Shown here: positions 13,663-50,978 of the stretch, one piece after another | Layout of the letters: the number at the start of each line of letters is the position of its first letter | Numbering within the stretch: the stretch's first letter is position 1 | From: Nitrospirota bacterium | Lineage (GTDB): Bacteria > Nitrospirota > Nitrospiria > Nitrospirales > Nitrospiraceae | Direction: 5' to 3' | DNA length: 64,000 nt | NCBI GenBank assembly: GCA_030684575.1 | Contig: JAUXVD010000003.1 | Location: 248,001-312,000, forward strand | The notes under the pieces: generated by a model | Told to the model about the DNA's origin: nothing | The model's database searches: none | What the model saw: the letters and a program-made list of their open reading frames with translations, nothing else | Made by a program: the position numbers and the translations under genes

Positions 13663-14856
13663 TCACCGCGACAGATCGTTAAGCCTCGCTCGAGCCCGTG
13701 CGATCTCGCCGCGATTGTCCGGAGTTTCCGGTGTCAACCGCAGAAATTCCTGGAAGGCCTGCTCGGCCTCCTGCCGTCTCCCCGCGACGACGCTCGAATT
13801 GCCTAAATTGTAATGAACGGCAGCCAGATCCGCTTGCAGCTGGATGGCTCGGCGGTATGCGCCAATGGCCCCATCCAGGTCACCTGATTGCTGCAGCGCG
13901 ATCCCCAGATTGGCATAAACGATCGCGTCATCGGGCTTCAGGCGAAGCGTCTCCTGGTACGACACGATGGCGCCTGGCAGATCATCCTTGGCCTGCAATG
14001 CGATCGCAAGTCGCAGATGCGCTTCTGCATGGTCCGGTTGGAGTCGGATCGTCATGTGATACAGCGCGATGGCCGCGGTTGCGTCTCCCTTTGCCATGAG
14101 CGCATTGCCGAGGTTGAGTCCATACCTGGCTGCCAGTGGACCGGATTGGAGACGCAATGCGGTTCGGTAGGCGGTGATCGAACCATCCAGATCGCCTTTC
14201 GCCTGCAGGGAGATGCCCAGATTATTATGTGGCACCGGATTGTTTGGTTTGAGACGAATAGCCTCTTGGTAGGCGGCGATCGCTCCGTCAGAGTCGCCCT
14301 TGTTCTTTAGGGCGACGCCCAGGTTGTTCTGCACCATCCAAAGATCAGGCTCCAGGCGGATCGCCTCGCGATATTCTCGAATGGCGCCGTCGGGGTCGTC
14401 GGTGGCGTCGAGCGCCCTCCCGAGACTGCCGTGCGCCATGGCATGGTCCGGCTGAAGAGCAAGGGTCGCGCGATATTCCACCATCGCCGCCTCGACATCA
14501 TCTTGTGAGGCAAGCGCCAATCCGAGCCCATGATGAGCTTCGGCAAAGTCGGGGTGGCGCCGAAGGGCCTCTTTGTACTCCAGGATCGCAGCAGTCTGTT
14601 CGCCCTTTGCATAGAGCGCGACGGCAAGATTGTGGTGCGAAGCCGCCTCCACCGGCGCTAACTCTCCTGCCAAGGCAGGGGTGGTTCCTTGGACCCGTTG
14701 GTTCGTATTTTGTGAAAGGGGTTCGAGAGGAGCAGGAGCCTCAGTTGCCGTGGCGTCGACAACTGCCAGGCAGCTGAGGAGTGCCGTCGCAGCAAGAGCG
14801 GGTCGAAGTGCGGCTATAGAGACGTTGAACATGTAGTCTTTAGTCGCATGTTGCAT
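13663..14856 (-). CDS. Exported TPR-repeat protein
   Basis: A 397-residue protein with an N-terminal signal-like segment (ALAATALLSCLAVV) and then nine or so consecutive 34-residue tetratricopeptide repeats from about residue 70 to the end. Examples are AEAHHGLGLALASQDDVEAA, MVQNNLGVALKNKGDSDGAI and AIVYANLGIALQQSGDLDGA. The repeats are nearly identical in the small-residue pattern G-L/A-A, so recent internal expansion is likely. TPR arrays mediate protein-protein contacts; the partner is unknown. The first Met (14856) and Met9 (14832) are both possible starts; Met9 gives the more standard signal peptide. It is probably periplasmic, upstream of two further exported proteins on the same strand. 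Confidence 0.85.
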   Translation of the reverse strand: MQHATKDYMFNVSIAALRPALAATALLSCLAVVDATATEAPAPLEPLSQNTNQRVQGTTPALAGELAPVEAASHHNLAVALYAKGEQTAAILEYKEALRRHPDFAEAHHGLGLALASQDDVEAAMVEYRATLALQPDHAMAHGSLGRALDATDDPDGAIREYREAIRLEPDLWMVQNNLGVALKNKGDSDGAIAAYQEAIRLKPNNPVPHNNLGISLQAKGDLDGSITAYRTALRLQSGPLAARYGLNLGNALMAKGDATAAIALYHMTIRLQPDHAEAHLRLAIALQAKDDLPGAIVSYQETLRLKPDDAIVYANLGIALQQSGDLDGAIGAYRRAIQLQADLAAVHYNLGNSSVVAGRRQEAEQAFQEFLRLTPETPDNRGEIARARARLNDLSR

Positions 14857-15281
14857 CCCTGCGTTTCGGCTCTGAGCGCGGCGGGAATCCGTTTCATTCT
14901 ACAGAGGTTTCCCGGCTCGCGCAATTAGGATATGCCGGTACAGCCTGACTCGAGTGAGCGACCGGACTCTCGAAATCCTTGCAGACGTGCTGAGGAACGC
15001 TCCAGGCATCGTCCAATCCTGATGATGATTGTGCAGGTGAAGTCGGTCGGGAATACGTTGAAGTGCACCGACCATTATTGGGGCCTGCCCCTGGTCTTTC
15101 ATAGACGCCTATGGGCAATAGTTTCATGGCGTAGCAGGGGAGTAAAAAACCGTCTGGAAAGTCGTTTTTCGTGTGGAATGTACTTGACTCAGAGCCCGCA
15201 AGGCAATAAAGTGACTCATAGGTCACTAATGACTGATTGTGATGCAAGAGGGACTGTCCGGGCGGGAGGGGAGATTGCAAG
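14857..15281. other. Divergent intergenic region TPR gene versus PilZ-like gene
   Basis: A 425-base spacer with no convincing gene. It contains an AT-rich patch (about 15145-15200) and an operator-like inverted repeat at 15210-15227. Confidence 0.45.
15210..15227. promoter_or_regulatory. Operator-like inverted repeat
   Basis: AGTGAC-TCATAG-GTCACT is a perfect 6-base inverted repeat with a 6-base spacer, 55 bases upstream of the PilZ-like start. The arm and spacer geometry is like sites of CRP/FNR-type dimers, though the bases are not a canonical CRP or FNR box. Confidence 0.4.
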
Positions 15282-15749
15282 ATGCAGACTATTGCTGGGG
15301 TGGAAAGCGAGGGGACGTTCGCAGGGCGGACGACGGAGCTGATAAGTGCGTCCAATGCCAGCACTGCCAGAGTTATCGCCCCAGGTGGCGAGCCAAGGAG
15401 CGGATTGCACGATCGATCAGCTTCTCCTGTGAGCGGGTCAGCACACATTCCGGTCACCTTCTGGGTGCCGGACGGCAGTTGCTACGAAGGGGTTACTCCC
15501 CATCTTGCCGATGAGATCCTCTTCGTTGAATCGAAACAGGTCCTACCTATAGACACAGCCGTTACCATTCGCATCGCGTCATCGAATGATGGTTCGGTCA
15601 ACTGGGCTCTCGCCAAGGGAACGGTCGTGTGGAATTGTCCTGACGGAGATCAATTCAAGAATCGGCAGGGGTTTGGGGTCTGCCTTCAAGGTCGCTGGCC
15701 TCAGCCGCTTGGACAGACGAAGCCGGATGGCTCAAAGGAGGACGCATGA
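15282..15749 (+). CDS. PilZ-like domain protein (weak)
   Basis: A 155-residue soluble protein. Residues about 58-145 (HIPVTFWVPDGSCYEGVTPH, LPIDTAVTIRIASS, LAKGTVVWN, QGFGVCLQGRW) follow the strand pattern of PilZ domains (variable strand, turn, then a G.VVW...G.GV ending). The usual RxxxR c-di-GMP motif is not evident, so it may not bind the nucleotide. The start at 15282 has GGGAGGGGAG 8 bases upstream. It overlaps the next short frame by ATGA. The call rests on pattern alone. Confidence 0.5.
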   Translation: MQTIAGVESEGTFAGRTTELISASNASTARVIAPGGEPRSGLHDRSASPVSGSAHIPVTFWVPDGSCYEGVTPHLADEILFVESKQVLPIDTAVTIRIASSNDGSVNWALAKGTVVWNCPDGDQFKNRQGFGVCLQGRWPQPLGQTKPDGSKEDA

Positions 15750-15949
15750 ATACGCTTCGCGGACTCATCAAGCAGGTCACTCGTCGAGAGGGCCGTGTCG
15801 GGCGGGTTTGGTTGATGAATAATGAGCATACGCGATGGGTCAATCGATTGTCGTCGTCCATTGCTTCGAAAATACAGCACCCTGCGGGAACGGTCTGCGG
15901 CCACCGGCTGCAGGAACATGGAATTGATGGAAATTGTGCGCAATTTTGA
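15746..15949 (+). CDS. Small hypothetical protein
   Basis: A 67-residue basic frame starting in an ATGA overlap with the PilZ-like gene and preceded by a near-perfect AAAGGAGG site inside that gene. No recognisable domain. Its 3' end runs into the shared motif at 15935, so it may be spurious or a truncated gene. Confidence 0.35.
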   Translation: MNTLRGLIKQVTRREGRVGRVWLMNNEHTRWVNRLSSSIASKIQHPAGTVCGHRLQEHGIDGNCAQF

Positions 15950-15956
15950 CCAGTTT
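15935..15956 (+). promoter_or_regulatory. Shared non-coding motif, copy 2
   Basis: Second copy of the element described at 9845-9864. It is followed 9 bases later by GGAAC (15971) and, 18 bases after that, CGTC, a spacing slightly wide for an ECF-type promoter. It lies 87-108 bases upstream of the YtxH gene, so it may be part of that promoter region. Confidence 0.35.
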
Positions 15957-16042
15957 GTTCTTGATCAAAGGAACAGTGTGAGGCGTGCCAAACGTCCAAT
16001 AACTGTAGCTATACCGTGAAAATTACGAAAGGAAGGTGAGTC

Positions 16043-16273
16043 ATGATGGATGAACGTAATGTATTAGTGCCAATGGGATTTTCATTGCTGGCAGGGATTT
16101 TGATCGGCGGGGTGGCCGGGCTGCTGTATGCCCCTCAGTCTGGAGCCAGATCCCGCCGTCAGCTCGCGAACTTAGCTGATGACGTGCGGGAGCGGGCCGG
16201 AGAGATAGCGGAAGATGCAACCACGGCGATAGAGAAAACGGTCGAACGAGGGCGCCGGTTGGCCAATTTGTAA
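16043..16273 (+). CDS. YtxH-domain small membrane protein
   Basis: A 76-residue protein with one N-terminal membrane helix (GFSLLAGILIGGVAGLLYAP, about 11-30), the YtxH signature in which a Gly-rich helix ends in LLYAPQSG, and a charged helical tail (AGEIAEDATTAIEKTVERGR). The family is linked to general stress in Bacillus; the mechanism is unknown. It has a good AAAGGAAGG site. A second YtxH-like gene follows treY at 24088. Confidence 0.8.
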   Translation: MMDERNVLVPMGFSLLAGILIGGVAGLLYAPQSGARSRRQLANLADDVRERAGEIAEDATTAIEKTVERGRRLANL

Positions 16274-16327
16274 TCGACGGGGCGATCCGATGGGGATCGC
16301 CAGGGCACGAGTAAGAAGGAGGGTGCT

Positions 16328-16543
16328 ATGTGTTGTCACCGTTGCAATGGCTTGATGCTTCGAGATTCGTTTGTCGATCTTCGAGACGATACGGGGCGGT
16401 TGACGTTCGAGGGATGGCGTTGTCTCAATTGCGGTGAAGTGGTCGATCCGGTGGTCCTCACACACCGGATCGATGCACCGGCAGGACCGTATCAAGGGCG
16501 AACGCGCGATCGCCGCATGTGGGAACGTCTCGTCGCCGTGTGA
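16328..16543 (+). CDS. Small zinc-ribbon protein
   Basis: A 71-residue protein with two knuckles, CCHRC near residues 2-6 and CLNC near 33-36, as in small zinc ribbons, separated by an acidic LRDDTGRLTFEGW stretch. The start has AAGGAGGGTGCT upstream. Such proteins are common and uncharacterised in related bacteria. Metal binding is inferred from the cysteine spacing. Confidence 0.65.
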   Translation: MCCHRCNGLMLRDSFVDLRDDTGRLTFEGWRCLNCGEVVDPVVLTHRIDAPAGPYQGRTRDRRMWERLVAV

Positions 16544-16681
16544 GCTACCAGGCTGTACGCCTTCGTCCACATCGGACACAGTATCTCCTCAGTCCGGAAC
16601 CCCACGGCTCGCCGCCTCGGCAGGTCTGATAATTTTTATGTGCAAAGTAGGTGTCTGTATTGATTCACGCCATCTTGTCTG

Positions 16682-16888
16682 TTGAGGCTGATTCTTTCGT
16701 TTTTGGAGGGCCTGTGGGGACCCCGGATGTTACGAAGATCCAACGGTATCCCAGACGTATTAACGGTAGGACGCTTCATCGAGAAGCCTGACGCCCAGAT
16801 GGCGCAGACCCTGGGCGCGGGCCTGTTATTGAACACGATGATCATCATGGCAAAAGTGAAGACACGTTGGAGTCTGGGGGTTGCATAA
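16682..16888 (+). pseudogene. Remnant of a sugar nucleotidyltransferase (mannose-1-phosphate guanylyltransferase type)
   Basis: The frame contains GRFIEKPDAQMAQTLGAGLL followed by LNTMIIMAKVKT. This matches the substrate-binding FVEKP plus GALWNT-type segment of NTP_transferase enzymes. The N-terminal nucleotide-binding GGxGxR part and the C-terminal half are missing, so what remains is an internal slice of about 45 residues. It is likely a decayed gene; a small real protein is less likely. No mobile element flanks it. Confidence 0.5.
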
Positions 16889-16968
16889 GGATCGGCGGTA
16901 CAGAACAATGGCGCAGGTATCCTGACGATCGATCCCTCTAGGGCGAGATGAAAGGAGCCGAAATTTAG

Positions 16969-17112
16969 GTGAATTGTTCACGAAACATGCAGCTTCGCCG
17001 GCGGCTGGGCTGGCCGCCTGACCCGCCATTCAGACATTATGTCTGGGGAGTGCTGATTGCGGCTTGTGGGGGGCTGGCCATTCTGGGGATGGCGTATTTG
17101 TTGGGTCAGTGA
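16969..17112 (+). CDS. Small single-span membrane protein
   Basis: A 47-residue frame from GTG 16969 (AAAGGAG 11 bases upstream), or 41 residues from ATG 16987. After a basic Pro-rich segment (RRRLGWPPDPPFRHYVW) comes one membrane helix (GVLIAACGGLAILGMAYLLG) and the stop. It sits 30 bases before the CBM48-like gene on the same strand. Function unknown. Confidence 0.5.
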   Translation: MNCSRNMQLRRRLGWPPDPPFRHYVWGVLIAACGGLAILGMAYLLGQ

Positions 17113-17142
17113 GTTGCGTTTTGCATACAAGGAGATTGTCGA

Positions 17143-17535
17143 ATGAAACAGCCTGCTCGTAAAAAGGTGGAGTCTCCCCGTTCTCCGCGACGGCCCTCGA
17201 CCAAGCAATTGGTGTCGTTCGAATACTTCGATCCCTCGGCAACCGTGGTGACACTCGTGGGGGATTTCAATCGATGGGACATGAAGGTCCGGCCGCTCAA
17301 GCGCGATGCGGGGGGCCTCTGGAAGGTCCGCGTGCAATTAGAGCCCGGTACGTATCAGTATAAGTTTGTCGTCGATGGAGTGCGCTGGGAAGAAGATCCG
17401 CTGAATCTGCATCGTGCCTATAATGAGCATGGCACGTTCAACTCGATCAGGAAGGTCGCACAACCACCTGTCAAGACGGGCGATAGGGGAGCTGGTACGG
17501 CGAAAGGAGATCATGGGCACAACAACGCAGGTTGA
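17143..17535 (+). CDS. Stand-alone glycogen-binding (CBM48/AMPK-beta-like) protein
   Basis: A 130-residue protein whose residues about 22-105 form an isoamylase-N/AMPK-beta glycogen-binding domain: VSFEYFDPSATVVTLVGDFN, then RWDMKVRPLKRDAGGLW, LEPGTYQYKFVVDGVRWEED and a conserved end. The Trp and Lys contact positions of the family (W in FNRW and GLWKV, K in YKFVVDG) are present. There is no catalytic domain, so it probably tethers something to glycogen or senses it. Its 3' end overlaps the TetR gene by 23 bases, which suggests coordinated expression. It lies 2.4 kb upstream of glgC. Confidence 0.85.
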   Translation: MKQPARKKVESPRSPRRPSTKQLVSFEYFDPSATVVTLVGDFNRWDMKVRPLKRDAGGLWKVRVQLEPGTYQYKFVVDGVRWEEDPLNLHRAYNEHGTFNSIRKVAQPPVKTGDRGAGTAKGDHGHNNAG

Positions 17536-18184
17536 GGCGCCTCTGTCTCGGGTCGCGAGACGGAAGGCGAAAACGAATCAACGGTTGTTAGAGGTTGCGC
17601 GGAAACTCTTCTCCGAGAAAGGTATTTACTGGGGCAAGGTTGAAGATATTACGGAGATGGCCGACCTCGGGAAAGGAACGTTCTACAAGTATTTCGATTC
17701 GAAAGAGGCGATCATCCGTGCCCTGCTTGAGGAGGGGCTGAGCGAGTTGTTGGGACAAACGGAGCATGCCGTTGAACAGGCGTCTTCCAACTCAAAGATT
17801 TTATCGGCGATGATCGCGGCGAGGGTCGACTTTTTCCTGACGCAACCGGACTACTTGCTGTTCCTTCACCAGATTCGTGGGCTGATGCAGCTTCGGGTCG
17901 ATTCCGCCCATGAGTTATGTGAAGTCTACGATATCCATCTTCGCCGCCTCGCACAATTGGTGAAGCCGGCCATCGGGACCAGCGGATCTATCAAAGCTCG
18001 TGATCTTGCGACGGCCATTGCTTCATACACGTCCGGGCTGCTGACGTACCACGCATTGTTTGAAGGATCGGACGCGATGACTCACCGGCGCGATCACTTT
18101 GTGGACATGCTCGAACGGAGTCTCCAGGCCCTGCTGAAAACCGGTAACGGATCATCCAAACCGGCTCGGAGCCGTCGGGGCTGA
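17513..18184 (+). CDS. TetR/AcrR-family transcriptional regulator
   Basis: A 223-residue regulator. The N-terminal helix-turn-helix spans about 22-70: LLEVARKLFSEKGIYWGKVE, DITEMADLGKGTFYKYFDSK. The C-terminal ligand domain (about 80-205) is helical and diverged, so the ligand is unknown. The start at 17513 has GAAAGGAG just upstream; an earlier in-frame start at 17414 lies inside the CBM48-like gene and is rejected. The natural target could be its own transcript, the adjacent glycogen-binding gene or the OmpA-type lipoprotein downstream; no operator was identified. Confidence 0.88.
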   Translation: MGTTTQVEAPLSRVARRKAKTNQRLLEVARKLFSEKGIYWGKVEDITEMADLGKGTFYKYFDSKEAIIRALLEEGLSELLGQTEHAVEQASSNSKILSAMIAARVDFFLTQPDYLLFLHQIRGLMQLRVDSAHELCEVYDIHLRRLAQLVKPAIGTSGSIKARDLATAIASYTSGLLTYHALFEGSDAMTHRRDHFVDMLERSLQALLKTGNGSSKPARSRRG

Positions 18185-18260
18185 AGGTACAGAATAGCGG
18201 GAATGACCGAATAATAAAGGGGGGTACTCGATGGAGCGATATAGAGCAGAGGCAACCTTG

Positions 18261-19808
18261 ATGAACAAGCATATGGCCATCATCGGAATCGTGGCCATTC
18301 TCGGCCTAGGGCTGAGCGGATGTGTCTCCAACGGAACACATGAGCAGACGTTGGCTGAGCTCGACAAGGCTCGGAAAGCGGCGGCTCAACAAGCCGAGGT
18401 CGACAAGAGCAGTCTGGCCGAGCAAGTGGCTCGCGTTGCCGATTTAGAGAAAGCCAAGGCGCTGGTCGGGAATGAATTACTGGCCGCCCAGACGGAGCTT
18501 TCGAGGACTCAGGCCGAGTTGGTCCGAGCGAGAGATGTGGCTGAACGGGAACAGGAGAGCAGCCGCCGGTTGCGGGATCAGGTGATCAAGGCTCAAGAGG
18601 AGAGCCGACAGGTCCAGAACTTGTCAGGAGAAGTCCGTCGCGAGCGCGATCAGCTCAAGACGAAAGCGGATGATCTAAATCGTCAACTTGAAACAGGTCG
18701 GCAGGACCTCGCCAACCGTGAGAATGCGTTGAGCGGGACAAAGGCTCGCGTGGCAGTCCTGGAGAAGCAGGAGCAGGATTTGACCGATGCCCTGAGTGCG
18801 GCGCGCGGAGATATCCGCAACCTGACGACCAAGCTTGAAGCCGAACATACTCAGGTGGCTACATTGCAGGAGGACAAGAAACGGTTGTTGGGAGGCACGA
18901 CCACGGCACAAAGCGAAATTGCACGTTTGCAGAAACGGGCCGGTGAGTTGGAGACCGAGGCGATGCGGGCCAAAGATTTGGACAAGCAGGTGACGGAACG
19001 GAATCAGGAAATCGGCCTATTGCGACATTCCCTCGCCGATCGCGATGCCGTCGCTGCCGCCTTGGCCTCCCAAGGGGGTGAGCTCAAGAATACGAGACAG
19101 CGAGTGGATCAGCTCACCGCTGAATTGGCAACAATGAGCGGGGAGTCTGCCGCCTTCAAGCATGAACGAGACAATCTCGCCGGACAAGTCGCCAAGCTCG
19201 ACGAGACGACTGCCTCCCTCAAAAAGAGTAAGGAGGAAGCCCTCGCCTCGCTCGAGACCCAGCAAGCAGCGCTGAAGCGCTTAGAGCAGGAAAAGGCAGC
19301 GAAGGATGCGGAGATCAAGCGTCTCGCGGGAACCTATGAGGATCTCGCAGCGTCGTTGCGGTCCGAGATTGCCCAAGGCGATATCAAAATCAAGCAGGTG
19401 CAGGATCGTTTGACGATCAACGTGGTGGATCGCATTCTCTTCGACTCCGGCAGCGCCAAGATCAAACCGGCAGGGCTCAAGGTGATGAAAACTGTCGGCG
19501 ATGTCTTGAAGAAGATCACGGACAAGCAGATTCGCATCGAAGGCCATACCGACAACGTGCCGATCGGAGTGGGACTGAAAGACAGATTTGCTTCGAATTG
19601 GGAGCTGTCGACGGCGCGGGCCACTAGCGTGGTTCGCTACCTGATCGATGAAGGCGGCGTGGCTCCTGAATTCTTGACGGCGGCCGGACATGCAGACACG
19701 CAACCCGTTGTCGCCAACACCTCCGACGAGGGGCGCGCTCAAAATCGGCGGATCGAAATCGCCTTGTACCCGAAGGATCTGAGGAGTATTGCCGAGGGTA
19801 TTCGCTAG
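18261..19808 (+). CDS. OmpA-domain lipoprotein with long coiled coil
   Basis: A 515-residue protein with a lipoprotein signal (MAIIGIVAILGLGLSGC, lipid attachment at the Cys), a Gln/Glu/Lys-rich coiled-coil region of roughly 360 residues, and a C-terminal OmpA-like peptidoglycan-binding domain (about 388-510) with DRILFDSGSAKIKP, RIEGHTDNVPIG, NWELSTARATSVVRYL and AQNRRIEIAL. It probably spans from the outer membrane to the cell wall. The in-frame ATG at 18231 would add ten residues before the signal; the lipobox spacing favours 18261. Independent of the alpha-glucan genes in function. Confidence 0.88.
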   Translation: MNKHMAIIGIVAILGLGLSGCVSNGTHEQTLAELDKARKAAAQQAEVDKSSLAEQVARVADLEKAKALVGNELLAAQTELSRTQAELVRARDVAEREQESSRRLRDQVIKAQEESRQVQNLSGEVRRERDQLKTKADDLNRQLETGRQDLANRENALSGTKARVAVLEKQEQDLTDALSAARGDIRNLTTKLEAEHTQVATLQEDKKRLLGGTTTAQSEIARLQKRAGELETEAMRAKDLDKQVTERNQEIGLLRHSLADRDAVAAALASQGGELKNTRQRVDQLTAELATMSGESAAFKHERDNLAGQVAKLDETTASLKKSKEEALASLETQQAALKRLEQEKAAKDAEIKRLAGTYEDLAASLRSEIAQGDIKIKQVQDRLTINVVDRILFDSGSAKIKPAGLKVMKTVGDVLKKITDKQIRIEGHTDNVPIGVGLKDRFASNWELSTARATSVVRYLIDEGGVAPEFLTAAGHADTQPVVANTSDEGRAQNRRIEIALYPKDLRSIAEGIR

Positions 19809-19916
19809 ATCGCAGTAACGGCGGGCAATGTGTCTGAAGGACCAGCCTGTGGATGTGGGCGAGAGCTTGGCGGCGAGCGGTAACATGCTCGCAAGAGAAA
19901 TCGGAAGGAGCGGAGG

Positions 19917-21173
19917 ATGAGGACCGTCATACAAGGGAAGCGCGTATTAGCCATTATCATGGCCGGTGGAAAAGGCTCACGGCTGATGCCGTTGACCGAG
20001 CTACGGAGCAAGCCGGCCGTGCCGTTTGGCGGGAAATACCGTATCGCGGACTTCGTCCTGAGCAACTTTTTGAATTCCGGGATCATGGCCATGTATGTGC
20101 TCGTACAGTATCGGTCGCAATCGCTGATCGAACATCTTCGGCGAGCCTGGCGGATCGGGGGACGGATCAAGCAGCATTTCATCACCGTCGTGCCCCCGCA
20201 AATGAAGGCCGGGGGCGGGTGGTATGAAGGGACGGCCGACGCGGTCTATCACAACCTCAATCTCATTCGGGACTTTGCGCCGGATTTGGTCGCAGTCTTC
20301 GGGGCGGACCACATCTATCGCATGGACATTAACCAGATGATCCAGTTCCACCAGGCGAAGAAGTCCGAGGTGACGGTGGCGGCGTTGCCGGTACCGCTGC
20401 ATGCCGCTACGGGATTTGGGATTATTGAAACGGACCGTGACGGACGGGTTACCGGTTTTGAAGAGAAGCCCAAGCATCCGAAACCGATGGTCCAGGATCC
20501 TGAGCACGCCTATTCGTCGATGGGCAATTACCTCTTTGACGCCGAGCTGCTCATCAACGTGTTGGAGGAGGATGCCTCGAAGCCTGGATCGCATGATTTC
20601 GGCCGGGATATTATTCCTCACTTGATCAAGAGGAATCGTGTGATGGCCTACAACTTCCGCGATAACCTCGTGCCGGGAATCAAGCCCTATGAGGAGCCAG
20701 GCTATTGGCGGGACGTCGGGACGTTGGAGGCCTATTGGCAGGCGCATATGGACATGTTGGGCTCTGCGCCATTGTTTGATCTTCGTAACGAGGAATGGCC
20801 GATTCTGACCGATACCTTCGACGGCCCGACGGTGAGTTTCGCTCGCGCGACGATCGAGGATTCGTTGGTGGGACAAGGCAGTCTGGTGATCGATGCCAAG
20901 ATCCGCCGTTCGGTCATCGGCAGGAATGTCCACATCGAGCACGGAGCCGAAATCGATGAATGTATCATCCTGGACGGATCCAGGATCGGCTCCAAGGCGC
21001 GTCTTCGCCGGGTCATCGCCGATCGCTATAACTTGATTCCACAGTCAGCAGAAATCGGATTCGTGCCCGACGAGGACCGGAAATCGTATCAGACGACGAA
21101 ATCGGGGTTGGTCATTCTTCCGCGAGGCCAGTCTGACGGCAAGGGTGGCTTCCGCACACCAGTTTCTTCATAG
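19917..21173 (+). CDS. glgC: Glucose-1-phosphate adenylyltransferase GlgC
   Basis: GlgC makes ADP-glucose from glucose-1-phosphate and ATP, the committed step of glycogen synthesis. At 418 aa it is full length. The N-terminal nucleotidyltransferase domain has MAGGKGSRLMPLTELRSKPA and PFGGKYRIADFVLSNFLNSG, the substrate-binding TGFEEKPKHPKP and PGYWRDVGTLEAYWQAHMD, and a C-terminal left-handed beta-helix with hexapeptide-like repeats (SLVGQGSLVIDAKIRRSVIG). It is separated from treY by 9 bases. No glgA is present in the window, so the ADP-glucose may feed the GlgE route, TreT or an unseen synthase. Confidence 0.97.
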   Translation: MRTVIQGKRVLAIIMAGGKGSRLMPLTELRSKPAVPFGGKYRIADFVLSNFLNSGIMAMYVLVQYRSQSLIEHLRRAWRIGGRIKQHFITVVPPQMKAGGGWYEGTADAVYHNLNLIRDFAPDLVAVFGADHIYRMDINQMIQFHQAKKSEVTVAALPVPLHAATGFGIIETDRDGRVTGFEEKPKHPKPMVQDPEHAYSSMGNYLFDAELLINVLEEDASKPGSHDFGRDIIPHLIKRNRVMAYNFRDNLVPGIKPYEEPGYWRDVGTLEAYWQAHMDMLGSAPLFDLRNEEWPILTDTFDGPTVSFARATIEDSLVGQGSLVIDAKIRRSVIGRNVHIEHGAEIDECIILDGSRIGSKARLRRVIADRYNLIPQSAEIGFVPDEDRKSYQTTKSGLVILPRGQSDGKGGFRTPVSS

Positions 21174-21181
21174 AGGCGCGC

Positions 21182-24091
21182 ATGCAACAGACCACCCATC
21201 CTCGCATTCCCGTTTCGACCTATCGGATTCAACTGAACAAGACCTTCACGTTTCGCGATGTGGCGAAGATCGTGCCGTACCTGCACGATCTCGGGATTAC
21301 GGATCTCTATTGCTCGCCCTATTTCACGGCGGTGCCCGGTAGCATGCATGGCTACGACATCGTCGATCCGACCACCCTGAATCCTGAAATCGGGACCGAA
21401 GAAGATTATCGCGCGATGGTCAGTGAGTTGCACCTGCGTGGAATGGGTCAGCTCTTGGATGTGGTTCCGAATCACATGGGGATCACGCAGCAGCTCAATG
21501 GCTGGTGGCAGGATGTGCTTGAAAACGGGCCGAGCTCTCCCTATGCGTCGTTTTTCGATATCGATTGGGATCCGCTGAAGCTGGAGTTGCGGGAAAAGGT
21601 CCTGCTCCCGATTCTCGGAGATCAGTATGGCGTCGTGCTGGAAAATCAAGAACTGCAATTGGTCTATCAGGATGGGCGGTTTATCGTGCAGTACTACGAC
21701 CATTGCCTGCCGGTCGCCCCAAAGCCGTCCGCGTTGATTCTGGCGCATCGGCTGCCAGCGCTGACTCAGGAGCTGGGCGTCAACGATTCGCATGTGATGG
21801 AACTGGAGAGCCTCATCACGGCATTGAAACACTTACCGTCTCGACAGGATCGGGCTCCCGATGCGGTCGCCGAACGTTATCGCGAAAAAGAAATCATCAA
21901 GCGCCGCTTGAGTGCGCTGGTTTCCGGCAGCGAGCCGATTCGGGTATTTCTCCATGAAAACGTGCGCGTGATCAATGGCACGAAGGGGGATCCTCGAAGT
22001 TTCGACCTGCTGGATCAGATGCTGAACGACCAGGCGTATCGGCTCGCGTACTGGCGGGTTGCGGCGGAAGAAATCAACTATCGACGATTTTTTGATATCA
22101 ACGAGTTGGCCGCAATCCGCATGGAGATCCCGGCGGTCTTCGAAGAGACGCATAAGCTCATTTTGCGATTGGTCAAGGATGGCGCGGTCACGGGGCTTCG
22201 CATCGATCATGTCGATGGGCTGTACGATCCGGCCGATTATTTACAGAAACTACAACATTGGGCTCGAAAAGAATTGCCACTCACGTCCGAGTCCACCAAC
22301 AGGCCGTTGTACGTGCTGGTCGAAAAGATTCTCGGCGTCAATGAACAAATCCCGGATAATTGGCCGGTCTTCGGCACGACCGGCTATGATTTTCTTGGCT
22401 GGCTGAATGCGCTGTTCGTGGATCGTACTTACGAACGAGCATTCGATGCCATCTATACCCGGTTTATCGGGAGAGACAAACCCTTTGACGAACTCACGTA
22501 TCGATGTAAGCAGCTGATCATGCAGGCCTCCATGGCCAGTGAGCTCAGTGTGCTGGGCCATCAATTGGATCGATTGTCCGAACGGGACCGCCGGTCGCGG
22601 GATTTCACGCTGAATAGCTTGACCCACGCGATTCAGGAGATTATTGCCTGTTTCCCCGTGTATCGCACCTATATAACGGGAGCCCCGGACGGGATCCTCG
22701 ACCGGGACCGGATATTCGTGTGGCAGGCGGTGACCCAGGCGAAACGACGGAATCCAGCCGTGAGCGGCTTGGTCTTCGACTTCGTGAGGGATCTCCTGTT
22801 GAAACCATCGGACCAGACTGAGTCGGACCGGGAAGGCCGGTTGAAGTTCGTGACGAAATTCCAGCAGATGACCAGCCCCGTCACGGCCAAGGGCATTGAG
22901 GACACGGCGTTCTATCGCTACCACCGGTTCATTTCGCTGAACGAAGTCGGATCCAATCCCCAGCAATTCGGCATCACGCCTTCGCTCGTGCATCATCAAT
23001 GGATCGCACGGCAGGAGCACCGGTCCACTTCGCTCTCGACAACCTCGACACACGATACCAAACGTAGCGAAGACGTTCGGGCACGGCTCAACGTGCTCTC
23101 AGAGATTCCGAAGCGCTGGAAGCATCATGTGATGCGCTGGCAGAAACTGAACCGGCGCTTCAAGAAGCCAGCCAGCGGCCACGAATCGGTGCCAGGCCGC
23201 AACGAAGAATATCTCCTATACCAGACCGTACTCGGAGTGTGGCCACTCGAACCCATGAATGAACAGGCGTATGCTCGATTCGTGGATCGCATCCAGGTCT
23301 ACATGAATAAAGCGGTCAAGGAGGCGAAGGAGCATACCAGTTGGGTCAGTCCGGATGGCGAGTACGAAGAGGCGCTCAAGCAGTTTATTGCCAAGGTGTT
23401 GGACCGTTCGTCGTCGAATGCCTTTCTGGACGACTTTCTTCCCTTTCAAGAAGACGTCGCCCAATACGGTCTCTATAACTCTTTGTCGCAAGTACTCGCG
23501 AAGATCGCCGCGCCTGGTGTGCCAGATCTCTACCAGGGTTCGGAGTTGTGGGACTTCAGCCTGGTCGATCCAGATAACCGGAAGCCGGTCGATTTTGCGG
23601 AGCGAGCAAGGCTATTGGCTGAACTGAACAAGGCCTCGGCAACCGCATCAGGCCGTATGGCGGTCATTGAGGATCTGTTTGCCCAACGCGCCGACGGTCG
23701 GATCAAGCTGTTTTTTGCCGCAGAGGCGCTGCGCTATCGGCGGGACCACCGCGCGCTGTTTCTGTCAGGTGAGTATGTCCCGCTGGAGGCATCGGGAGAT
23801 AAGAGCGAGCATCTGTTCGCGTTTGCCCGTATTCACGGCGAGGAGTCGATCGTGACCGTCATCCCTCGCTTGTTGACCAGGGTGATCCCGGATGTCTCTG
23901 TCCCTCCTCTCGGAGCAGCGGTATGGGGAGAGACGTGGTTGCCGGTGCCGGCTGTGCGGGAGGGTACGAACTTTCACGATATTTTTACCGGAGCGGTGCT
24001 GAGTACGATCACACGCGACGAGCGCCAGGTATTGCCGGTGAGCGAGATTCTTTTACGCAGTCCTGTGGCCTGGCTGGAAAGGATGTCATGA
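21182..24091 (+). CDS. treY: Malto-oligosyltrehalose synthase TreY
   Basis: TreY (GH13) converts the reducing end of an alpha-1,4-glucan into a trehalosyl unit, which TreZ then releases. At 969 aa it is in the usual range. The barrel begins PRIPVSTYRIQLNKTFTF and carries TGLRIDHVDGLYDP (nucleophile Asp342), VLVEKILG (acid/base Glu381) and SLSTTSTHDTKRSEDVRARL (stabiliser). A long helical insertion separates the last two, and the C-terminal beta-domain has VPDLYQGSELWDFSLVDPDN. It ends in an ATGA overlap with the YtxH-like gene. Its partner treZ lies 17 kb upstream, past glgB. Confidence 0.97.
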   Translation: MQQTTHPRIPVSTYRIQLNKTFTFRDVAKIVPYLHDLGITDLYCSPYFTAVPGSMHGYDIVDPTTLNPEIGTEEDYRAMVSELHLRGMGQLLDVVPNHMGITQQLNGWWQDVLENGPSSPYASFFDIDWDPLKLELREKVLLPILGDQYGVVLENQELQLVYQDGRFIVQYYDHCLPVAPKPSALILAHRLPALTQELGVNDSHVMELESLITALKHLPSRQDRAPDAVAERYREKEIIKRRLSALVSGSEPIRVFLHENVRVINGTKGDPRSFDLLDQMLNDQAYRLAYWRVAAEEINYRRFFDINELAAIRMEIPAVFEETHKLILRLVKDGAVTGLRIDHVDGLYDPADYLQKLQHWARKELPLTSESTNRPLYVLVEKILGVNEQIPDNWPVFGTTGYDFLGWLNALFVDRTYERAFDAIYTRFIGRDKPFDELTYRCKQLIMQASMASELSVLGHQLDRLSERDRRSRDFTLNSLTHAIQEIIACFPVYRTYITGAPDGILDRDRIFVWQAVTQAKRRNPAVSGLVFDFVRDLLLKPSDQTESDREGRLKFVTKFQQMTSPVTAKGIEDTAFYRYHRFISLNEVGSNPQQFGITPSLVHHQWIARQEHRSTSLSTTSTHDTKRSEDVRARLNVLSEIPKRWKHHVMRWQKLNRRFKKPASGHESVPGRNEEYLLYQTVLGVWPLEPMNEQAYARFVDRIQVYMNKAVKEAKEHTSWVSPDGEYEEALKQFIAKVLDRSSSNAFLDDFLPFQEDVAQYGLYNSLSQVLAKIAAPGVPDLYQGSELWDFSLVDPDNRKPVDFAERARLLAELNKASATASGRMAVIEDLFAQRADGRIKLFFAAEALRYRRDHRALFLSGEYVPLEASGDKSEHLFAFARIHGEESIVTVIPRLLTRVIPDVSVPPLGAAVWGETWLPVPAVREGTNFHDIFTGAVLSTITRDERQVLPVSEILLRSPVAWLERMS

Positions 24092-24705
24092 CACAGTGGC
24101 TCGGCGATGATCGGGAGAAGATGCTGTGGCTAGGTGGAGAGGCCCATGTTCGTTCTTATGACGTCAGACCGACACTCTCATTTCTGCGTCGGTGGCTGAC
24201 GTTGGAGGCCCTGCCTCTGTTGGCAGGAACTGCGGCAGCCGGAATCGCTCTCGGAAGTCTCGGCACGGTCGGCATGATGAAGGCGAAGCAAGAGCCCTCG
24301 CGAAAGCGAATCGGCGAACGGATCCATACGGGATCTTACGAAAGGAAGGAATCTATGGAACAGGGACGAGCAGATGATCGGCAGATGCGGGACGTTGAGT
24401 CTGATGCAATGGGTGCCTTGACGATCCTGGCAGCATTCGGATTCGGGCTGTTGGCCGGCGCAGCGGTGACGCTGTTGACGACGCCGGAACCCGGCTCGTC
24501 GGTCCGCAGGCGCGTGAAGCGAGGAGTGGACACGGCCAGAGAGGAACTCGATGAGATCGTAAAAGAGAGCAAAGAGTCCTGGGGGCAGGTTCGTGACGAT
24601 GCGCGTGAAGCGGTCAAGCGAACGGCGGTCAAGATGAAGGACGCCGCTCAAGCCACGAAAGACGCGCTGGCTGAAGATCCTTCTTCGGTACGGAAGATGC
24701 CATGA
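24088..24705 (+). CDS. YtxH-domain membrane protein coupled to treY
   Basis: A 205-residue frame with a first hydrophobic stretch at about residues 44-60 and a YtxH domain from about 110 (LTILAAFGFGLLAGAAVTLL then TTPEPG), followed by a charged amphipathic helical tail (AREELDEIVKESKESWGQV). The start ATG overlaps the treY stop. A strong ribosome-binding site (AAAGGAAGG) precedes the internal ATG at 24355, which alone would give a 116-residue YtxH protein. The first 89 residues may therefore be a separate N-terminal addition or an alternative product. It is possibly stress-linked; function unknown. Confidence 0.65.
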   Translation: MTQWLGDDREKMLWLGGEAHVRSYDVRPTLSFLRRWLTLEALPLLAGTAAAGIALGSLGTVGMMKAKQEPSRKRIGERIHTGSYERKESMEQGRADDRQMRDVESDAMGALTILAAFGFGLLAGAAVTLLTTPEPGSSVRRRVKRGVDTAREELDEIVKESKESWGQVRDDAREAVKRTAVKMKDAAQATKDALAEDPSSVRKMP

Positions 24706-24706
24706 G

Positions 24707-24726
24707 CGTTCGTTCGTTCGTTCGAA
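24707..24726. repeat. TTCG tetranucleotide repeat
   Basis: Four perfect TTCG units, 46 bases upstream of the glgE GTG start, in the 66-base spacer after the YtxH-like gene. Related to the run at 13587-13607. Possible slippage site in the leader; effect unknown. Confidence 0.35.
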
Positions 24727-24771
24727 TCGAAGCTGCGGAAGGCACGTCACATCAACGGAGGTGTACGCGAG

Positions 24772-26772
24772 GTGGGTAAGACAACGAAATTTGAACCGGC
24801 GATCTCGCCGGCCATCGTGATCGAGCGGGTGCAACCGGAAATCGACGGCGGCCGCTGGCCGATCAAACGCGAGATGGGAGACCGGCTGGAAGTGTCGGCC
24901 GACATTTTCAAGGAGGGGCACGATGTCCTGGCTTGCGTGCTGCGGTATCGTCTCCTCAAAGAAGAGGTCTGGCAGGAAGTGCCGATGGAGCCACTGTCCA
25001 ACGATCGATGGGTGGGGCACATCGACCTGACCCAGAATATGCGGTATCGCTATTCGATCGGGGCCTTTGTCAATCTGTTCGAGTCCTGGCTGATCGAAGT
25101 GACGAAAAAGCATGAAGCCGGTGAACGGATCGAGAGCGAACTGCTCGAAGGGAGAACGCTGGTGGAGGCCACGGCGATCCGAGCCACAGGAGAAGACAAG
25201 ACTCGGTTGCAGGAGTGGCTGAGTCGTTGGCGAACCGGCGATCCGGCGGAGGCGCAATTGGATGTCGCCTTGAATGCCGACGTGAAGGCGCTCGTGGAGC
25301 GGCATCAGGAACGACGGGCCTGGACCCTCTACGATCGTGAATTGGAAGTCGTCGTGGACCGCGGGCTGGCCCGCTACGGGGCCTGGTACGAATTCTTTCC
25401 GCGGTCGCAGGGCACGACGCCGGGCCGGAGCGCGACCTTTAAGGAATGTGAAGCGAGACTGCCAGCCATCAAAGCCATGGGATTCGACGTCGTCTACCTC
25501 ACGCCGATCCACCCGATCGGCCACACGAATCGCAAAGGGAAAAATAATTCGCTCACGCCCCTGCCGACCGATCCCGGCAGTCCCTATGCGATCGGGAATG
25601 AATTGGGTGGACACGATGCGGTCGAGCCGAGCCTCGGCACGATCAAGGATTTCGATCACTTTCAGGAAGCCGTCCGCGGACAGGGCATGGAAGTCGCCAT
25701 GGATTTTGCGATCAACTGTTCGCCGGACCATCCCTATGTGAAAGAACATCCGGAATGGTTCGCCCATCGGCCGGACGGCACGATCAAGTATGCAGAGAAT
25801 CCGCCTAAGAAATATCAGGACATCTACAACGTCGACTTTTATTGCGAGGACTGGCGCGGTCTGTGGAATGAGATGAAACGCGTGATCCTCTTCTGGGCCG
25901 GCCACGGCGTGAAGATCTTCCGCGTGGATAACCCGCATACCAAGCCGGTGGCCTTTTGGGGCTGGCTGATCCGAGAGGTACAGGACTGCCATCCGGACGT
26001 GATCTTTTTATCCGAAGCCTTCACCAGGCCGAAGATGATGAAGGCCCTCGCCAAGGCTGGATTTACGCAATCCTATACCTATTTCACCTGGCGGAACTTC
26101 AAGCAGGAGCTGACGGATTACATGCGGGAATTGTCCGGCAGCGAGATGAAGGAATACTTTCGTCCAAACTTTTTCACGAATACGCCGGATATCCTGCCTG
26201 ACATTCTTCAGCACGGCGGCAGACCGGCTTTTAAATTCCGGCTGGTGCTCGCGGCGACATTGTCGCCGTCGTACGGCATCTATAGCGGGTACGAACTCTG
26301 CGAAAATCGCGCGTTGCCGGGGAAGGAAGAGTATCTTGATTCGGAAAAATACGAGATCACGTTGCGGGACTGGGCCCTGCCTGGCCACCTGACCGACTAT
26401 GTGACGACGGTCAATCGCATCAGACGTGAAAATTCGGCCTTGCACGAATTGGAAAATCTTGAATTTTACGAATCTGACAACGAACATCTGCTCTTTTACG
26501 GAAAGCGCACGGTCGACGGGCGCAACATGGTGCTCGTCGCGGTAAATCTGAACCCGTTTCAGGCGCAGGAGGCGCGGTTGCAGATTCCGATTGCCGCACT
26601 CGGCATCACGCCCGACGAAATATACCAATTGCACAATTTGATCACGGATCAACGGGACCTGGTGCAGGGTGAGACCTATTCCATTCGACTGGATCCGCAG
26701 GTCGAGCCGGCCGCGATTTACGCCGTGCGGCGTTGGACACGTCGCGAACAGGAGTTCGATTACTTCTTTTGA
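24772..26772 (+). CDS. glgE: Alpha-1,4-glucan:maltose-1-phosphate maltosyltransferase GlgE
   Basis: GlgE (GH13_3) extends alpha-1,4-glucan chains with maltose from maltose-1-phosphate. At 666 aa it is full length. The N-terminal beta-domain (about 1-115) is followed by YEFFPRSQGTTPGRSATFKE and the GlgE-specific motif VYLTPIHPIGHTNRKGKNN, with catalytic regions KIFRVDNPHTKP (Asp386) and VIFLSEAFTRP (Glu415). The C-terminal domain ends YAVRRW. The start is a GTG with CGGAGGTG upstream. It is followed 10 bases later by maltokinase, the standard partner. Confidence 0.96.
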   Translation: MGKTTKFEPAISPAIVIERVQPEIDGGRWPIKREMGDRLEVSADIFKEGHDVLACVLRYRLLKEEVWQEVPMEPLSNDRWVGHIDLTQNMRYRYSIGAFVNLFESWLIEVTKKHEAGERIESELLEGRTLVEATAIRATGEDKTRLQEWLSRWRTGDPAEAQLDVALNADVKALVERHQERRAWTLYDRELEVVVDRGLARYGAWYEFFPRSQGTTPGRSATFKECEARLPAIKAMGFDVVYLTPIHPIGHTNRKGKNNSLTPLPTDPGSPYAIGNELGGHDAVEPSLGTIKDFDHFQEAVRGQGMEVAMDFAINCSPDHPYVKEHPEWFAHRPDGTIKYAENPPKKYQDIYNVDFYCEDWRGLWNEMKRVILFWAGHGVKIFRVDNPHTKPVAFWGWLIREVQDCHPDVIFLSEAFTRPKMMKALAKAGFTQSYTYFTWRNFKQELTDYMRELSGSEMKEYFRPNFFTNTPDILPDILQHGGRPAFKFRLVLAATLSPSYGIYSGYELCENRALPGKEEYLDSEKYEITLRDWALPGHLTDYVTTVNRIRRENSALHELENLEFYESDNEHLLFYGKRTVDGRNMVLVAVNLNPFQAQEARLQIPIAALGITPDEIYQLHNLITDQRDLVQGETYSIRLDPQVEPAAIYAVRRWTRREQEFDYFF

Positions 26773-47966: not shown

Positions 47967-48071
47967 GAAGGTGGGCGTGGCTCAATCCCGGCTGAAAAGA
48001 AAGGGCGGGCACTGATGATACCCAATCGAAGTGTTGTCGGTCTGCTAGAGAGAGATGATAGCTGATTTGTC

Positions 48072-49214
48072 ATGGCCTCCAAATCTAACAATCAGATTAA
48101 CGTTATACCGAAAGTTTTGCTTCAACAGTTGATCGATGTGCTTTCTGCACAAGGCTATCGCACGGTCGGTCCGGTCGCGCGCGACGGAGCTGTCCTCTGG
48201 GACACCATCCGACAGGTATCGGATCTGCCGATCGGTTGGCGCGATGAGCAGGCGCCTGGACGCTATCGCATAGAACAGACCGGCTCGGCCAGGATTTTCG
48301 GTGTGGTCCATGGGCCGCAGTCTGTGAAGCCGCTGGCATTTGCGCCGCGTGAGCCGTTGCTGACGATCGAACGGAGTCAGGGGCGGGTTTCGGTTCAGCC
48401 GACAATGCCGAAGAGCGAGAAGGTTGCGGTGCTCGGGGTGCGGGCCTGCGATCTGGCAGGGCTCGCGATCCAGGATCACATCTTTCTGAAAGACGCCTAC
48501 CGGGATCCCTATTATCGTACACGTCGTGACGGCCTGTTTCTGATTGCGGTGAACTGCACTCGCGCGCTCGCCACCTGTTTTTGCGCCTCGATGGACACCG
48601 GTCCGCGAGCGGGCGCAAGTTTCGACCTCGCCCTGACCGAATTGGACGAAGCATTTCTCGTGGAAGCAGGCAGTGAAGCTGGCCGAGAGGTGGTGCGCGC
48701 ATTATCGCCTGCGCCGGCCTCGACCGCGCAGACCCGCGAAGCCGAACAGCAGATCGAGGCCTGCGCCGGTAGCCAGACGCGGCAGTTGGACCGATCGCAG
48801 CTCCCACAGGCCCTGTATGACGCGCATGAGCATCCACGATGGGACGATGTCGCGGTGCGCTGCCTCGCCTGCGGGAATTGCACGATGGTGTGCCCGACCT
48901 GTTTCTGTCATGCGGTCGAGGAGGTGCCGAACCTCACGCAGACAGGTAGTGAACAGAGCAGATTGTGGGATTCCTGTTTCACCCAGGACCATGGCTATAT
49001 TCACGGCAAGAACATTCGACCGACAATCAAGGATCGTTATCGCATGTGGCTCACCCACAAGCTGGCTTCCTGGATCGATCAGTTCGGCACCTCCGGCTGT
49101 GTCGGCTGCGGACGGTGCATCACCTGGTGCCCGGTCGGGATCGATCTCACCGAAGAGTTGCCGACGTTACTGAAACCATCGAGTCCGGCCAAGGAAAAAT
49201 CTAGCCAATCATGA
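48072..49214 (+). CDS. hydB: Group 3b [NiFe] hydrogenase/sulfhydrogenase beta subunit (iron-sulfur)
   Basis: A 380-residue iron-sulfur subunit that carries electrons between the hydrogenase dimer and the flavin subunit. Its C-terminal half has two [4Fe-4S]-type motifs, RCLACGNCTMVCPTCFC (Cys264, 267, 270, 274) and GCVGCGRCITWCPVGIDLTE (from Cys343), with another Cys-rich area (GVRACDLAGLAIQDHIFLKD, CFCASMDTGPRAG). This order matches the AsrA/HydB family. The stop overlaps the next gene's ATGA. Naming follows archaeal hydBGDA; the substrate partner (NADP or sulfur) is not settled by sequence. Confidence 0.88.
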   Translation: MASKSNNQINVIPKVLLQQLIDVLSAQGYRTVGPVARDGAVLWDTIRQVSDLPIGWRDEQAPGRYRIEQTGSARIFGVVHGPQSVKPLAFAPREPLLTIERSQGRVSVQPTMPKSEKVAVLGVRACDLAGLAIQDHIFLKDAYRDPYYRTRRDGLFLIAVNCTRALATCFCASMDTGPRAGASFDLALTELDEAFLVEAGSEAGREVVRALSPAPASTAQTREAEQQIEACAGSQTRQLDRSQLPQALYDAHEHPRWDDVAVRCLACGNCTMVCPTCFCHAVEEVPNLTQTGSEQSRLWDSCFTQDHGYIHGKNIRPTIKDRYRMWLTHKLASWIDQFGTSGCVGCGRCITWCPVGIDLTEELPTLLKPSSPAKEKSSQS

Positions 49215-50077
49215 CACGCTTCTCACAGGTCACGGAGAATGGCGCACTCAATCCCTATCTGATTCAGCCTGCCACGATTGTGGAGAAGATCAGAGAAGCG
49301 GAAGATATCGACACCTATCGGTTACGTTTCGTCGATGAACAGGCGCGGCGGAGTTTTCGATTCGCGGCCGGGCAGTTCAACATGGTTTATCTCTTCGGCG
49401 TCGGCGAGGTGGCAATCTCGATCGTGTCGGATCCTGATGAGCCGGAGTCCCTGGCCCACACCATCCGTGCGGTAGGGCGAGTCACCAAGGCCATCGCGCA
49501 ACTGCAGCCTGGCGATGAGCTGGGCATCCGTGGGCCGTTCGGACAGGGCTGGCCGCTCGACGACGCGCTGGTCAAAGATGTGCTGATCGTGACCGGCGGG
49601 CTGGGCTGTGCGCCGGTCGTCGGCGCCATTGAATATATCTTTCGTCGACGCAACCAGTATGGAGCCGTGAAGATTCTACACGGGGTCAAGACGCCGCACG
49701 ACCTGCTCTTTCGGGAGCGGTTCGATGCCTGGCGAAGACATCCCGATACTCAGGTCTTATTGACCAGCGACCAGCCCGATAAGACCTGGCATTACCACGT
49801 CGGCGTGGTGACGGAACTTTTCGAGCAAGTGGCGTTGGACCCGGCACGGACCATGGTCTTGATGTGCGGACCGGAGATCATGATGCGTTTAGGCGTGCCG
49901 ATCTTGATGCAGCGAGGGATTCCGGCGACCGCGATCTACGTCTCGCTGGAGCGGCACATGGAATGCGGGATCGGCCTCTGCGGCCATTGCCAATTGGGCC
50001 CCTATTTTCTGTGTAAAGACGGCCCGGTCATGCGGTACGACCGGGTCGCGCCGTGGTTGGGACGGACTGGTGTGTGA
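49211..50077 (+). CDS. hydG: Hydrogenase gamma subunit, FAD/NAD(P)-binding
   Basis: A 288-residue diaphorase subunit of the ferredoxin reductase type. It has a FAD-binding beta-barrel (about 15-105; RSFRFAAGQFNMVYLFGVGE), an NAD(P)-binding domain with DVLIVTGGLGCAPVVGAIEY, and a C-terminal [2Fe-2S] cluster motif MECGIGLCGHCQLGPYFLC (Cys252, 257, 260, 268). It is predicted to exchange electrons with NAD(P)H. The start overlaps the beta gene by ATGA. Confidence 0.9.
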   Translation: MTRFSQVTENGALNPYLIQPATIVEKIREAEDIDTYRLRFVDEQARRSFRFAAGQFNMVYLFGVGEVAISIVSDPDEPESLAHTIRAVGRVTKAIAQLQPGDELGIRGPFGQGWPLDDALVKDVLIVTGGLGCAPVVGAIEYIFRRRNQYGAVKILHGVKTPHDLLFRERFDAWRRHPDTQVLLTSDQPDKTWHYHVGVVTELFEQVALDPARTMVLMCGPEIMMRLGVPILMQRGIPATAIYVSLERHMECGIGLCGHCQLGPYFLCKDGPVMRYDRVAPWLGRTGV

Positions 50078-50099
50078 TCGGTGATGGGATGCCGTCGCT

Positions 50100-50948: not shown

Positions 50949-50978
50949 CGAGTACTATATAGCGCGAGCCTGTACGTC

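Follow-up and report, generated by a model that had tools for sequence, protein, structure and literature searches.

The stretch of DNA analysed here (the window) comprises 64,000 nucleotides of a Nitrospirota genome of 3.79 Mb in 23 contigs. On its plus strand, positions 17143 to 17535 code for a protein of 130 residues which is – according to profile match, alignment, and predicted model – a stand-alone CBM48, that is, a glycogen-binding domain of the AMPK-beta type. The reading frame is preceded by AAGGAG and exceeds the curated cut-offs of two Pfam families, AMPK1_CBM (2e-12; 47.6 bits, cut-off 26.8) and CBM_48 (8.9e-11; 42.4 bits, cut-off 22.4); the sole further Pfam match, X25_BaPul_like, is below its cut-off. 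Pfam detected no enzyme domain in the 130 residues, and only the CBM was matched, so that the C-terminal kinase/gamma-binding region of AMPK-beta is absent. No signal peptide was evident by eye. At E 0.001, this frame is the only AMPK1_CBM match in the window's genome; there are six further CBM_48 stretches, all within open frames of 625-832 residues, among them the window's GlgB.

The predicted model has the beta-sandwich fold of the AMPK-beta domain. Its pLDDT values are 93-97 over residues 21-100, with block means of 88-97 over residues 21-110; the two tails of about 20 residues each are of low confidence. The best structure match is the glycogen-binding domain of AMPK-beta1 (pdb code 1z0m; Z 14.6, rmsd 1.2, 81 aligned residues, 32% identity). 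The model contains no helix of four or more residues and consequently no coiled coil. Reading frame, Pfam matches, and fold thus bear out the initial annotation, which had described a free-standing CBM48/AMPK-beta-like protein of 130 residues lacking an enzyme domain.

A superposition of the sequences placed W45, K74, W82, and N100 opposite W100, K126, W133, and N150 of AMPK-beta1, whose numbering was anchored by the end point of the alignment (106 = 156). A study of the AMPK-beta domain (PMC4032982) describes the latter residues as critical to glucan binding. In all 13 aligned orthologs these four positions do not vary, at an identity to the window's protein of 42-74% across twelve of them. 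A basic N-terminal tail is a further common property: across the 17 orthologs listed (G414 left out), there are 7-10 lysines or arginines as compared to 0-3 acidic residues. Pairwise dN/dS values were 0.09-0.24 in ten comparisons, one of which was saturated in dS. The window's protein is 22 residues longer than that of the closest relative (G087).

The adjoining gene (17513 to 18184, plus strand) codes for a TetR-family regulator of 223 residues, which starts with an ATG at 17513 and has AAAGGAG upstream. Its HTH was matched by Pfam TetR_N (1.1e-12; 47.9 bits, cut-off 24). The predicted model adopts a TetR/FadR-like fold with a helical ligand-binding C-terminal domain of its own; the comparison with FadR gave Z 19.2 and rmsd 2.5 for 183 aligned residues at 15% identity. 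HTH, fold, and a predicted palindrome over the -10 element of its own operon, described below, liken the protein to the TetR/FadR-type autorepressors, from which it differs in that it reaches no NCBIfam equivalog cut-off (best score 45.5 bits as compared to 250). The 23-bp overlap of the two genes, noted previously, was confirmed at 17513-17535.

Operon members and the glycogen/trehalose neighbourhood

All genes between the predicted promoter and TetR lie on the plus strand. The first reading frame of the predicted operon (15282 to 15749) codes for 155 residues, which are PilZ-like by eye only and gave no Pfam match. It is followed by a basic frame of 67 residues (15746 to 15949), also lacking a Pfam match, which has a similar counterpart 5' of YtxH in several relatives. 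Then come a YtxH-like protein (16043 to 16273; Pfam YtxH, 2.1e-13) and a Cys-rich protein of 71 residues (16328 to 16543), which is zinc-ribbon-like by eye and has no Pfam match. At 16745 to 16879 there is a remnant of a sugar nucleotidyltransferase-like gene (tblastn, 52% over 46 residues, 7e-10). In relatives, this gene is longer and lies between the 71-residue gene and CBM48; the copy of locus L041 belongs to Pfam NTP_transferase. Finally, a frame read from the sequence at 16987 to 17112 codes for a hydrophobic microprotein of 41 residues, single-TM-like by eye, which ends 30 bp 5' of CBM48. In some relatives, the TetR operon contains a TatA-like gene (L042:11723-11989; Pfam TatA_B_E, 6.3e-16 for this copy), and frames resembling it by eye occur in L039 and L040.

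The predicted operon would start at 15184-15228 and would run through YtxH, the small Cys-rich protein, and CBM48 to TetR. The 71-residue gene and the microprotein are separated by a gap of 443 nt, and a weak terminator-like hairpin is located at 17077-17093; hence, transcripts may not extend as far as CBM48. On the other side of TetR, the operon perhaps continues into a gene with an OmpA domain (18231 to 19808; Pfam OmpA, 2.3e-19), the glucose-1-phosphate adenylyltransferase GlgC (19917 to 21173; NCBIfam NF002023 and TIGR02091, over cut-off), and the maltooligosyltrehalose synthase TreY (21182 to 24091; TIGR02401, over cut-off), all on the plus strand. The maltosyltransferase GlgE (24772 to 26772, plus strand; Pfam GlgE_dom_N_S, 2.3e-50) and, on the same strand, a maltokinase-cap protein (Pfam Mak_N_cap) as well as GH15, alpha-amylase-family, and TreT_GT1 proteins are encoded nearby. 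The minus strand carries an alpha-amylase protein with a CBM48 at 2400, TreZ-like by reading, and GlgB at 7424. Judged from these assignments, the neighbourhood of the CBM48 gene is a glycogen/trehalose cluster. At some distance, positions 48000-51000 of the window contain genes which, judged by eye from a motif, resemble those of a [NiFe] hydrogenase.

Conservation and separation of the gene pair

In order to define orthologs, 395 genomes of the phylum, including the window's own, were searched. At a threshold of E <= 1e-25, a TetR ortholog was found in 17 genomes. The CBM48 profile matched in 88 genomes at E <= 1e-20; its scores fall into two groups: 18 genomes reach at least 145 bits, and no other exceeds 104.5 bits. 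These 18 were taken as the genomes with a CBM48 ortholog, the cut being placed by choice in the score gap. Fourteen genomes contain both orthologs, and in every one of them the genes are adjacent with CBM48 directly 5' of TetR. The adjacency exceeds chance, although the genome counts are not independent, because the genomes are related. The pair is spread over five genera (g1, g2, g6, g12, g21); among 23 sampled genomes of its own genus, it occurs in the window's genome only. The initial annotation had recommended a search for the pair in relatives and had regarded a lack of conservation as an argument against its interpretation; the pair is conserved.

Downstream of CBM48, GlgC and/or TreY are encoded in 14 of the 18 genomes with an ortholog; in the stretches fetched from the other four (G087, G033, G001, and G040, the contig of G040 being 9.2 kb in length) neither gene was seen. 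Similar observations were made for named sequences. Among the best 80 of 427 named loci, Nitrospira MAGs come closest to the window in this region, and five named Nitrospira contigs contain the pair; GlgC/TreY come next in four of them, and the fifth stops shortly past TetR. Note that three of the named Nitrospira contigs (L127, L131, L132) were taken as identical to contigs of G067, G414, and G374. Beyond these five, the same best 80 loci gave no high-scoring TetR hit (339 bits or more); the hits in L174, L183, and L199 score at most 38 bits and are all located more than 3 kb from CBM48. A CBM48 ortholog with 72% identity to the window's protein is present on a contig labelled Planctomycetaceae (L126:329-706), with neither a TetR hit nor a good operator; this contig is possibly chimeric or misbinned. 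Among the papers listed for the open-licence part of PMC, we found none on a CBM48-TetR pair.

The overlap of the two genes is less constant than their order. For ten pairs, the spacing between the stop codon of CBM48 and the first position matched in TetR was measured: the window (G000) and G021 both have -23, and the remaining eight have +6 to +86; alternative in-frame starts are possible, one of which would give a short overlap in G087 too. In the window, the overlap codes for part of the nonconserved C-terminal tail of CBM48, modelled at a pLDDT of about 50. The 23-bp overlap is not conserved and looks incidental.

Moreover, the two genes can occur apart. A CBM48 ortholog without intact TetR was found in four genomes (G258, G018, G033, G001), and TetR with its predicted operator but without a CBM48 ortholog in three (G002, G010, G387). 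In G018, TetR is absent and the gene order is TreZ-CBM48-GlgC-TreY. In G258, CBM48 precedes GlgC, TetR is a broken remnant, and the operator was not found; the CBM48 gene is intact, with dN/dS values of 0.15-0.22 in four pairwise comparisons, like those of pairs with intact TetR. We regard the intact CBM48 alongside a broken TetR as modest evidence. The YtxH gene and that of the 71-residue Cys-rich protein each occur in 15 of the 17 TetR loci, as compared to 14 of 17 for CBM48, and each in none of the four loci having CBM48 but no intact TetR.

Predicted promoter and operator

A sigma-70-type promoter, TTGACT-N17-TAAAGT, is predicted at 15184 to 15212 of the plus strand, based on a search for promoter-like sites and on a layout common to relatives. 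It is the sole promoter-like site on the plus strand of 14850-24800; on both strands of this interval, two such sites were found as compared to 4.7 expected in shuffles, which alone is not significant. On the -10 element, at 15209 to 15228 and without strand assignment, lies the predicted TetR operator AAGTGACTCATAGGTCACTA, a 20-bp palindromic site similar to AAGTGACYNNNNRGTCACTT, 1.9 kb upstream of the CBM48 gene. The window's palindrome has perfect 6-bp arms and a 6-bp centre; a repeat search of 15150-15290 reported no inverted repeats with a length of at least 8 bp. Directly upstream of CBM48, a search for shared palindromes gave no motif common to distant genomes.

The operator was first spotted by eye on the -10 element upstream of YtxH in L045, L209, L042, and L213. 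A first 14-bp consensus, allowing at most one mismatch, matched in the operon of 14 of the 17 TetR loci and missed the window, L040, and L210; in the four TetR-less loci, it matched twice in L047 and not in the other three. The window's operator, which fails this consensus at one mismatch, is not among the stronger ones. A position matrix recovered all three missed loci. When applied in leave-one-out mode, it had the operator as top hit in 17 of 17 TetR loci, in each of them scoring over all 20 dinucleotide shuffles of that locus (for the window, of its first 20 kb). As the training sites had been chosen as the best match of each locus, data outside the training set matter more. In the held-out Nitrospira contigs L128, L129, and L130, the operator scores are 18.8, 24.3, and 16.2; each site is located downstream of a TTGAC box and differs from all training strings. 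A TetR gene can be seen in L129 and L130, and L128 ends within CBM48. Of the controls, 73 unrelated loci (732 kb) reach no more than 12.8, and 17 loci of another CBM48 paralog no more than 8.5. The four CBM48 loci without intact TetR scored 3.2, 13.0 (a weak site in L047), 4.1, and 3.9, and the CBM48 ortholog of L126, which has no TetR, is accompanied by a score of 7.8.

The arrangement of promoter and palindrome recurs among relatives. A sigma-70-type promoter with at most three mismatches to the consensus precedes the operon in 16 of the 17 TetR loci (a count made without shuffle control), the exception being L213, whose best promoter has six mismatches. In 15 of 17 loci, the -10 element of the best promoter overlaps the palindrome, and in L208 it abuts it. 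A weaker second site is indicated at +18 bp: in 14 of 17 loci, no other further offset scores better, and the mean score over the 17 loci is 6.7 there as compared to -31.4 (sd 4.3) elsewhere. The window is not one of these 14 and has no clear second site at this offset. In G387, where TetR occurs without YtxH or CBM48, the site is placed some 40-60 bp upstream of the TetR start.

Genome-wide matches of the pattern are scarce. The window's operator is the single match in its genome with at most one mismatch to AAGTGACYNNNNRGTCACTT. At this stringency, 9 of the 17 genomes with TetR, including the window's, have one site each, all at the locus; one of 17 genomes without TetR (G028) has a single match, where the reversed control also gave one. 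With up to three mismatches, the matches listed showed no enrichment over the reversed pattern in genomes with or without TetR. We therefore do not claim a wider TetR regulon. Such confinement of the operator to the TetR locus is characteristic of local autorepressors, and at the sequence level the palindrome lies, as in such systems, in the promoter of the regulator's own operon. TetR is thus predicted to be a local autorepressor of the operon holding its own gene: by binding the palindrome over the -10 element it would repress the operon and itself, and a ligand would relieve this repression.

Possible roles of the CBM48 protein

Among known proteins, the window's CBM48 most resembles the glycogen-binding domain of AMPK-beta, with which it shares the fold and the four glucan-contact residues; it differs in being stand-alone and bacterial, in lacking the kinase-binding C-terminal region, and in its basic N-terminal tail. 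With the CBM48 domains of GlgB and other GH13 enzymes it has the domain family in common, but it is unfused, and in both Pfam and structure comparison the AMPK-beta type matches it best. A functional parallel is offered by PROTEIN TARGETING TO STARCH (PTST) of Arabidopsis, described as a CBM48 protein without enzyme domain which targets an enzyme to its polymer, and whose starch binding is abolished by mutating two tryptophans equivalent to W100/W133 (PMC4339375). Both proteins are non-enzymatic and possess the equivalent Trp pair; according to this description, however, PTST binds its enzyme by means of a coiled coil, which is absent from the model of the window's protein. For this reason, we suggest that the latter may work like PTST and do not file it as a member. 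A description of a stand-alone bacterial CBM48 with a worked-out role was not found among the papers listed for the open-licence part of PMC.

Stand-alone CBM48 genes are not rare. The initial annotation, which considered these domains as normally fused to GH13 enzymes or kinase beta subunits, was too narrow in this respect: among 73 non-ortholog loci drawn from the best 80 of 427 named loci, 13 have CBM48 frames of less than 150 residues, one of which is truncated where its contig stops. They occur in Deltaproteobacteria, Omnitrophota, Spirochaetes, Elusimicrobia, and others, and some may be secreted. In the same bacterial family as the window, the loci L022-L038 have a sigma frame in 17 of 17 cases and a TetR hit in none; more generally, of the best 80 among 427 named loci, 28 from many phyla contain a sigma frame. 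At L022:498-2204, an ECF sigma gene (Pfam Sigma70_r2/r4) is followed by that of a 228-residue protein, TM-like by eye and with a C-terminal CBM48, and by a small CBM48 gene. No anti-sigma Pfam domain was matched at this locus; still, the layout recalls anti-sigma factors and is possibly a glucan-sensing sigma/anti-sigma system. The likeness to the window is that a CBM48 and a transcription factor are encoded side by side, which implies that CBM48 may serve transcription control elsewhere; the differences are that the paralog is another one and that, in L022, its CBM48 stands behind the TM-like segment seen by eye.

A role in transcription control has also been considered for the window itself, as the initial annotation proposed that the CBM48 could place a partner on glycogen or report the glycogen level, possibly to the regulator. 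In the second case, free CBM48 would bind TetR at low glycogen and alter its DNA binding, and glycogen-bound CBM48 would not; expression of the operon would thereby track the amount of glycogen. If true, a bacterial repressor would read a storage polymer instead of a small molecule, glycogen occupancy being passed on by contact. The strict adjacency in all 14 genomes that have both genes, CBM48 immediately preceding TetR in each, and the CBM48 on a TM protein beside an ECF sigma gene in the same family are in agreement with this idea. However, TetR and its operator are kept without CBM48 in three genomes and CBM48 without intact TetR in four, which shows that signalling from CBM48 to TetR is not required; moreover, the TetR model has the usual fold with a ligand-binding domain of its own. 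We consider a report to the regulator very unlikely, and since the genes can occur apart, CBM48 more likely acts on glycogen. What stands of the earlier interpretation is the intact AMPK-beta-type site, the glycogen/trehalose cluster, and the conserved pair.

The separated genes also bear on the proposal that CBM48, as a glucan-binding protein, regulates the activity of one enzyme (GlgC, GlgB, or TreY) by direct contact instead of by positioning it, with TetR as a mere transcriptional neighbour. The uninterrupted row of G018 and the position ahead of GlgC next to the broken TetR of G258 would fit, but in G033 and G001 neither GlgC nor TreY was seen in the vicinity of CBM48, and we regard this proposal as rather unlikely. 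A tether of glycogen to the membrane or envelope, by means of the TM-like microprotein or the basic N-terminal tail, could be suggested by the position of the microprotein directly 5' of CBM48 in the window, by similar frames in L040, L042, and L210, by the presence of the tail in all 17 orthologs listed, and by the YtxH and OmpA-domain proteins encoded nearby. As the microprotein was seen in at least 4 of 18 loci and other relatives hold the nucleotidyltransferase-like gene in its place, such a tether seems quite improbable. Finally, YtxH and the 71-residue protein track TetR about as closely as CBM48 does, as would be expected if CBM48 had lost glucan binding and its gene were carried along passively in an envelope operon; the invariance of the four glucan-contact residues and the low dN/dS values argue against this, and we consider it very improbable.

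The simplest account is that of an accessory protein in a TetR-autoregulated operon. In our estimation, there is an even chance that the window codes for a cytoplasmic stand-alone CBM48 which binds glycogen or maltodextrin and acts as a non-catalytic accessory of the neighbouring enzymes. From the conserved site we infer that glucan would be bound in the AMPK-beta manner, and from the gene neighbourhood that the enzymes served would be those of glycogen and trehalose metabolism encoded alongside. The protein would probably keep a partner on the glycogen particle, in the way in which plant PTST acts on a starch synthase. Due to the predicted operon, its predicted operator, and the existence of clear relatives, three points are directly testable: whether the protein binds glucan, whether bacteria have a PTST-like function, and how a glycogen/trehalose locus is controlled in Nitrospira-like organisms.
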